Source: an uncultured Ectothiorhodospiraceae bacterium (GTDB lineage Bacteria; Pseudomonadota; Gammaproteobacteria; Nitrococcales; Nitrococcaceae). Taken from it: DNA of 47,678 nt. The stretch covers positions 1 to 47,678 of the forward strand of contig CAJXND010000012.1 in NCBI GenBank assembly GCA_913056385.1, written 5' to 3'. The notes below the pieces were generated by a model that made no database searches, had not been told where the DNA came from, and saw only the letters and a program-made list of their open reading frames with translations. Positions 788-33,632 of the stretch are shown piece after piece (position 1 is the stretch's first letter; every line of letters begins with the position of its first letter). The translations under genes and the position numbers were made by a program.

Positions 788-864
788 GCGCCTGTAGCTC
801 AACTGGATAGAGCACCTGACTACGGATCAGGAGGTTGGGGGTTCGAATCCTCCCGGGCGCGCCA
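788..864 (+). tRNA. tRNA-Arg (anticodon ACG)
   Basis: A complete cloverleaf can be drawn by hand. The acceptor GCGCCTG pairs with CGGGCGC (854-860) through one T-G wobble. The D arm is GCTC/GAGC. The anticodon stem CCTGA/TCAGG encloses the loop CTACGGA, giving anticodon ACG. The T arm contains GGTTCGAAT. CCA is encoded at 862-864. A long hairpin terminator follows directly, and the 3' end of the tRNA is duplicated 156 bases downstream. Confidence 0.96.
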
Positions 865-1122
865 TATGACGAAAGAGCCGGCCGACAGGCCGGTTTTTTC
901 GTCATATAACCGGGGTCCGGGAGGTTCGAACCCCCAACAGCCGGATCAGGGGTTCGACCCGAGCGCGCAGCGCGAGAGCACGAGGCCCGCAGGGCCGAGC
1001 TAATCCTCCCGGGCGCGCCATATGACGAAAGAGCCGGCCGACAGGCCGGTTTTTTCGTTATATAATGGGGACTTGGAAGGTTCGAGCCCCCGTGAGTCGG
1101 GGAGGGGGTCCGACCCGAGCGC
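846..1122 (+). repeat. 156-bp tandem repeat carrying the tRNA-Arg 3' end and terminator
   Basis: Bases 846-909 (T arm, acceptor 3' strand, CCA and terminator) recur at 1002-1065 with one mismatch (C903/T1059). The same 156-base register continues more loosely: TTCGA-R-CCCCC at 925-935 and 1081-1091, and CGACCCGAGCGC at 955-966 and 1111-1122. There is thus one full unit and a second unit truncated before the EamA gene. Bases 917-938 are an inverted copy of tRNA bases 834-856 lacking T848. This organisation resembles the 178-bp rtT repeats behind tyrT in Escherichia coli. Confidence 0.9.
864..907 (+). terminator. Terminator of tRNA-Arg
   Basis: The inner stem CCGGCC/GGCCGG (878-883/888-893) has the loop GACA and a run of six T (894-899). 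An outer arm, ATATGACGAAA (864-874) with TTTCGTCATAT (897-907), extends it into a very long hairpin that starts at the last base of the tRNA CCA. It is copied almost exactly at 1020-1063. Confidence 0.9.
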
Positions 1123-33350: not shown

Positions 33351-33479
<129 letters not shown>

Positions 33480-33490
33480 GACAGTGCCCG

Positions 33491-33617
33491 GGGTTCGAAC
33501 CCTCGGTACAGACAGACAATGGGTTCGACCAATCGCCGCTGGCGATTGGGACGCCGAGCGGAGCGAGGCGCCCGAAGGGTGAGGCCCGAAGCATGAGGGC
33601 CGAATCAATCCCTCCCT
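33491..33617 (+). repeat. tRNA-Ser-derived repeat element
   Basis: 33494-33509 is a perfect 16-base inverted copy of tRNA bases 33409-33424. It continues through GGG (33491-33493) with the T-loop base T33425 missing, making the palindrome GGGTTCGAACCC. Next come GGGTTCGACC (33521-33530), GAGCGGAGCGAG, and GAGGCCCG...AGGGCCGA (33581-33603). Last is a direct copy AATCCCTCCCT (33607-33617) of tRNA bases 33423-33433, 184 bases apart. The same blocks in the same order occur behind tRNA-Arg at 917-1010. The GNAT gene starts just after. Confidence 0.8.
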
Positions 33618-33632
33618 GCTGAGGGTACGCAG

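Follow-up and report, generated by a model that had tools for sequence, protein, structure and literature searches.

The window, by which we mean the whole 47,678-nt stretch of DNA analyzed here, carries a tRNA-Arg(ACG) gene with an encoded CCA end at positions 788-864 of the forward strand (ARAGORN; Rfam tRNA model, 65.9 bits), and behind this gene lies a tandem repeat built in part from the tRNA itself. Each unit consists, in order, of the acceptor strand with CCA, a palindromic terminator and an inverted copy of the T-arm. The 3' end of the gene (846-864, forward strand, tRNA nucleotides 58-76) is the first copy of the stretch that recurs, and the second is found on the same strand at 1002-1020. 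Because position 846 is nucleotide 58 of tRNA-Arg(ACG), in the T loop, each unit begins exactly in that loop. The first copy is followed by a palindrome at 864-907 (inverted repeat I3), a terminator with extended arms that is terminator-like on both strands, and the second by a duplicate of this palindrome at 1021-1063. Comparison of 1002-1065 with 846-909 revealed a single mismatch in 64 positions (C at 903, T at 1059), and the 156-base register could be followed from 846 to about 1122, with 85% identity across 121 nt. The first unit spans 846-1001, and the second runs from 1002 to about 1122, where it ends inside the body of the element described below as an RtT. Recurrence, register and unit anatomy (T-loop start, CCA, terminator hairpin and inverted T-arm copy) are all as an earlier note on this DNA had claimed.

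The same downstream architecture accompanies tRNA-Arg(ACG) in the related genomes G005, G007, G009, G012 and G013. In G009 it was recovered in three contigs, with a neighboring EamA-type gene that is 93% identical, and in G005, which has three units, and G012 it lies within a single contig. Since relatives share this architecture, chance or misassembly can be excluded; an assembly artefact, which we considered, is ruled out by the recovery of the layout in independent, partly closed genomes. The earlier note had named a single genomic copy or an artefactual duplicate as what would overturn its description, and the presence of the same layout in related complete genomes establishes that the duplicate is real. 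An exact search of the genome contigs for the terminator sequence gave no match. We also observed that the arms of the terminator hairpins, in the window (864-907) and in congeners, reach past the T-run; their sequence differs between species, but complementarity is preserved.

The array varies among relatives. In the window it consists of one complete and one truncated unit, the latter bearing a second, diverged RtT (1064-1122, forward strand) of which the 156-bp register, sliding identity and comparison with G009 reveal the 5' arm and the start of the body only. At the Arg locus, G005 has three complete units, G007, G012 and G013 have one, and G000 and G009 have one plus a remnant. G002 keeps a body-less stub and G006 has none, with the same downstream gene present; relatives without an Arg RtT (G006 and G010) have retained the terminator alone. 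In G017 the tandem unit starts at the same tRNA position and is enlarged to 2,112 bp by a group II intron reverse transcriptase gene (RVT_1, GIIM) that lies inside it; over the 1,519 bp that were compared, the two units are 100% identical. Variable copy number among relatives and the perfect 2,112-bp tandem unit support the earlier suggestion that the repeat records slippage or recombination; the other possibility raised in the note, that the second unit might act as a decoy for tRNA-processing enzymes, is a conjecture. Unequal exchange between the tRNA 3' end, together with its terminator, and the identical RtT end would multiply or shrink the 156-bp unit. Such exchange would always leave the tRNA whole, and would thus explain how arrays grow and shrink without harm to the tRNA gene.

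Identity and fold of the RtT element

A cmscan search aligned the Rfam RtT model, RF00391, to positions 904-1020 of the forward strand along its entire length (model positions 1-130), with a score of 26.5 bits and E-values of 0.0036-0.0063. Taken alone, the Arg copy misses the curated Rfam reporting score of 45 bits, which is a cut-off and not a biological trait; an RtT behind tRNA-Gln in a congener scores 45.7 bits with the same model. A search of 95 related genomes with RF00391 found RtT in 36 of them at E <= 0.05. We then trained a covariance model, R1, on 18 RtT copies of the window's genus, with the window copy left out. R1 matched the window at 947-1020 (25.9 bits, E 3.7e-5), gave RtT matches in each of the 14 genus genomes and detected E. 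coli rttR (E 4e-12), so that window copy and rttR are linked through intermediate members of the family. In addition, the element lies directly behind the tRNA-Arg gene, on the same strand, and all 19 of its last nucleotides are identical to the host tRNA 3' end, CCA included. Judged by sequence, the Arg repeat is therefore a genuine, divergent homologue of E. coli rtT and not a mere analogue. In naming the rtT array behind tyrT as the nearest parallel, the earlier note had pointed to the right system, but RF00391 and R1 make the relationship one of homology; its anatomical reading also stood, but it had missed the hairpin body, a second RtT at 33482-33617, and sense and antisense ends that follow the host. 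Matches to further Rfam families (RNAI, plastid ycf2 and others) fell far under their cut-offs, overlapped the terminator or the tRNA antisense, and were taken as chance.

The predicted minimum free energy (MFE) fold of the window copy is multibranched (MFE -55.2, z -2.2). It is closed by P1, in which 915-924 pairs with the T-stem/acceptor 3' strand at 1005-1014, leaving a single-stranded GCCA 3' overhang. Next to the P1 strand, 925-947 is an inverted copy (inverted repeat I2) of the T-arm and variable region of the host tRNA at 825-847, 87% complementary over 23 nt, and its first part forms P2 with downstream bases (926-934/949-957). The body (947-1001, GGUUCGA(C)..hairpins..GAGCU) folds into two more hairpins and is shorter than the body behind tRNA-Ser, a shortening found in Arg copies generally. 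Pairing of the 5' arm with the 3' end around a multi-hairpin body, as in other RtT, was thus recovered in this fold and in the full-model alignment. Across aligned copies, an inverted host T-arm is followed by GGUUCGA(C), a repeat of the T-arm's 5' side, then by hairpins P3, P4 (with tandem G-A pairs), P5 (GCCC-GNA-GGGY) and P6, and finally by host nucleotides 58/59-76. In its sequence, RtT resembles a T-arm that is interrupted after nucleotide 58 by a hairpin-rich insertion and has its own inverted copy in front; when the tRNA-Ser T-arm itself is aligned to R1, a 73-nt gap falls at this insertion point.

The second RtT of the window (33482-33617, forward strand; R1 95.3 bits, E 5e-24 at 33518-33621) follows a tRNA-Ser(GGA) gene (33351-33441, forward strand; ARAGORN). 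Its antisense arm matches the T-arm/variable arm of that tRNA at 33492-33509, and its 3' tRNA copy ends after about nucleotide 68, without CCA. A further RtT with an intact CCA is located behind tRNA-Ser(UGA) elsewhere in the same genome (L130). In E. coli K-12, cmscan on individual loci found one RtT between tyrT and tyrV, three behind tyrV, and short copies behind lysT, lysW, lysY and lysZ (L199), as well as one at lysQ, where tRNA, terminator, RtT and an identical terminator follow each other in exactly the order of the window; among these copies, only rttR is annotated in the RefSeq record.

Several further copies were observed. Family f74 (L156-L176), outside the window's class, has RtT copies with host-matched ends. 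The RtT of tRNA-Ser(GCU) in G001 is apparently split by a rearrangement (L086 705-808, L201), with its 5' arm behind the tRNA at 810 kb, its body and terminator at 175 kb, and seven bases, AAGGACG, shared by both parts at the breakpoint. A locus in G313 (L187, 1053-1171) is a chimera in which the 3' half of a tRNA-Lys is fused at the T loop to an RtT body. Long tRNA-Lys matches in G257 and G370 had suggested that RtT might be inserted into the T loop of tRNA genes that are otherwise complete; this was rejected, the model having run over an intact upstream tRNA.

Host matching and covariation

The 3' end of RtT was compared with tRNAs in 65 genomes, for the 135 copies that have a tRNA upstream. 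Of these, 105 end in nucleotides 58/59-76 of their own host tRNA, matching it at no fewer than 15 of the last 16 nt; the match to tRNAs of other isotypes averages 9.4 of 16. In 86 of 92 comparisons within genomes, the own host gives a better match than any other host. Host match per position is 94-100% at nucleotides 59-76, 82% at nucleotide 58 and 0% at nucleotide 57, a sharp edge between 57 and 58. The hosts comprise at least nine isotypes (Ser, Gln, Tyr, Arg, Lys, Pro, Asp, Glu and Val) in two bacterial classes. The CCA end is not always kept, as many last copies of arrays, including the Ser(GGA) copy of the window, lack it.

The antisense arm, which spans mainly nucleotides 48-63 of the host tRNA, follows the host as well. 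Its best match within genomes is the own host in 71 cases, a tie in seven and another tRNA in four, and the observed mean was reached in none of 10,000 permutations. It also follows the isoacceptor-specific variable-arm bases of tRNA-Ser, reading CCCUCGGUAC with GGA, CCCCCGGAGC with UGA or CGA, and CCCACGAAG or CCCUCGAAG with GCU, and in G012 it tracks a T-to-C change of tRNA-Arg. The copied variable-arm bases have no pairing partner inside RtT, so folding of RtT alone cannot explain this match. In the sequences compared, the rule is that each RtT copies its own tRNA twice, nucleotides 58/59-76 in sense and the T-arm in antisense. We did not find this stated in the papers searched, a set outside which the founding rtT paper lies. 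The rule makes the RtT family more interesting than the single copy of the window, and turns a 30-year-old curiosity into something testable.

In the body, as aligned over 133 distinct RtT copies, both sides had changed in 22 of 24 base pairs and 91.6% of cells were paired. The covariation score was 0.519, whereas shuffles scored 0.133 and slid controls no more than 0.040; since this alignment was fitted to the structure, and can favour G-U, these figures lean upward. A MAFFT alignment of the genus copies gave the same picture (0.249 versus 0.092). RNAalifold on the mixed alignment A1 recovered only four pairs, all in P5, a limit due to poor alignment of the variable hairpins that the genus alignment and covariance model overcame. 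G-U appositions exceeded A-C appositions in P4 (24:1), P5 (68:19) and P6 (10:2), together 102 versus 22, and P3 had no such excess (23:25). Such an excess is what selection on the RNA of the tRNA-sense strand predicts, whereas DNA palindromes alone would have no such bias. As read from these alignments, the RtT body has four hairpins with strong covariation, and its structure appears to be under selection.

Possible functions and known relatives

Presence, homology, location behind tRNA genes, host matching, covariation and array variation can be read from the sequences; the transcription, processing, mutation mechanism and function of RtT are inferences. Overall, we consider it somewhat probable that the locus is a divergent RtT array behind tRNA-Arg(ACG) that acts as RNA, its ends probably held to the host sequence by tandem exchange and template switching. 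Its structure would be selected as RNA of the tRNA-sense strand. In the window a terminator separates tRNA and RtT, so that this RNA would have to come from read-through of the tRNA terminator, followed by trimming to the CCA, and its expression may be low. In other bacteria, where no terminator lies between the two, co-transcription would take the place of read-through.

What such an RNA might do is suggested by joint folding. In the predicted joint fold of the window, host T-arm and antisense arm form a duplex that encloses the terminator hairpin, and the 5' acceptor strand of the tRNA is bound by the second acceptor copy, with four nucleotides again left unpaired; the gain over separate folding of tRNA and RtT is 21 kcal/mol. 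Across 104 loci, the mean was -12.3 kcal/mol with the own tRNA and -3.9 when a tRNA of a different isotype took its place; the own tRNA did better at 99 of 104. Part of this gain follows from the antisense match as such, and it comes from MFE folding, which ignores co-transcriptional folding and tRNA modification. On the basis of these folds we propose, with low confidence, that RtT may act in cis on the run-on pre-tRNA. In the most speculative step, the antisense arm of the read-through transcript would bind the host T-arm and the first acceptor copy would give way to the second, thereby disabling or re-ending the run-on pre-tRNA. That RtT is a tRNA-templated switch or quality control of run-on pre-tRNA, with arms matched per host that take over the T-arm and supply a second acceptor 3' end, is in our estimate rather unlikely.

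Other explanations account for parts of these observations. RtT may be a DNA-level repeat without cellular function, in which slippage amplifies the hairpins, tandem exchange homogenizes the direct ends and template switching the inverted arm. Template switching during replication is known to create and repair inverted arms and hairpins (PMC8794818); it could by itself yield matched inverted arms, and probably keeps the inverted arm host-matched in the reading we favor as well. Variable copy number, decay of distal copies and an antisense arm copying variable-arm bases that lack a partner inside RtT fit such a repeat, but body motifs conserved with compensatory changes in two classes, the preference for G-U over A-C in three of four helices, and an E. 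coli RNA annotated as rttR do not, and we regard it as possible but doubtful. We think it unlikely that RtT is a free small RNA acting in trans on the stringent response, the role proposed for E. coli rtT. According to PMC4986893, which cites Bosl and Kersten 1991, transcripts of tyrT and of further tRNA operons yield free RtT, which modulates that response. Host matching of both arms argues for cis action or a mutation mechanism rather than a common trans target, and an E. coli sRNA screen that scored biofilm, motility and fimbriae lists RttR at 97% and marks no effect for it (PMC4606813).

RtT might also insulate the tRNA gene or back up its transcription terminator, which would be in keeping with the terminator palindromes on both sides of each unit and with the proposal that rtT-like BIME elements are attenuators (PMC2965389). 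Yet G006 and G010, which lack RtT, retain the terminator alone, and host-matched ends and conserved body motifs would be left unexplained, which makes such a role quite unlikely. The direct repeat of a tRNA 3' end and its flank also resembles the attL and attR sites left by tRNA-targeting integrases, for which the tRNA 3' end is the attachment site. A remnant of an integrative element is nevertheless highly improbable, as the sequence between the repeats is a conserved, structured family present at many tRNAs, with an antisense arm, and the 156-bp unit is too small for an integrase gene.

As a divergent RtT array, the Arg locus shares with the rttR/tyrT repeats of E. coli (RF00391) its position behind a tRNA gene on the same strand, an end made of nucleotides 58-76 with CCA, a tandem arrangement (in the window, of one complete and one truncated unit), a hairpin body and a 5' arm complementary to the T-stem/acceptor strand. 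It differs from them in its host, tRNA-Arg, in an intrinsic terminator that precedes it and is included in the duplication, in a unit of 156 rather than 178 bp, in its shorter body and longer antisense T-arm, and in scoring under the Rfam cut-off. Closer in layout is E. coli K-12 lysQ, with its tRNA, terminator, RtT with inverted T-arm, copy of the tRNA 3' end and identical terminator, although there the host is tRNA-Lys and the body is fuller. REP and BIME elements are likewise palindromic intergenic repeats, and some rtT-like sequences have been classed among BIMEs (PMC2965389), but the RtT of the window is tied to tRNA genes and has host-specific ends.
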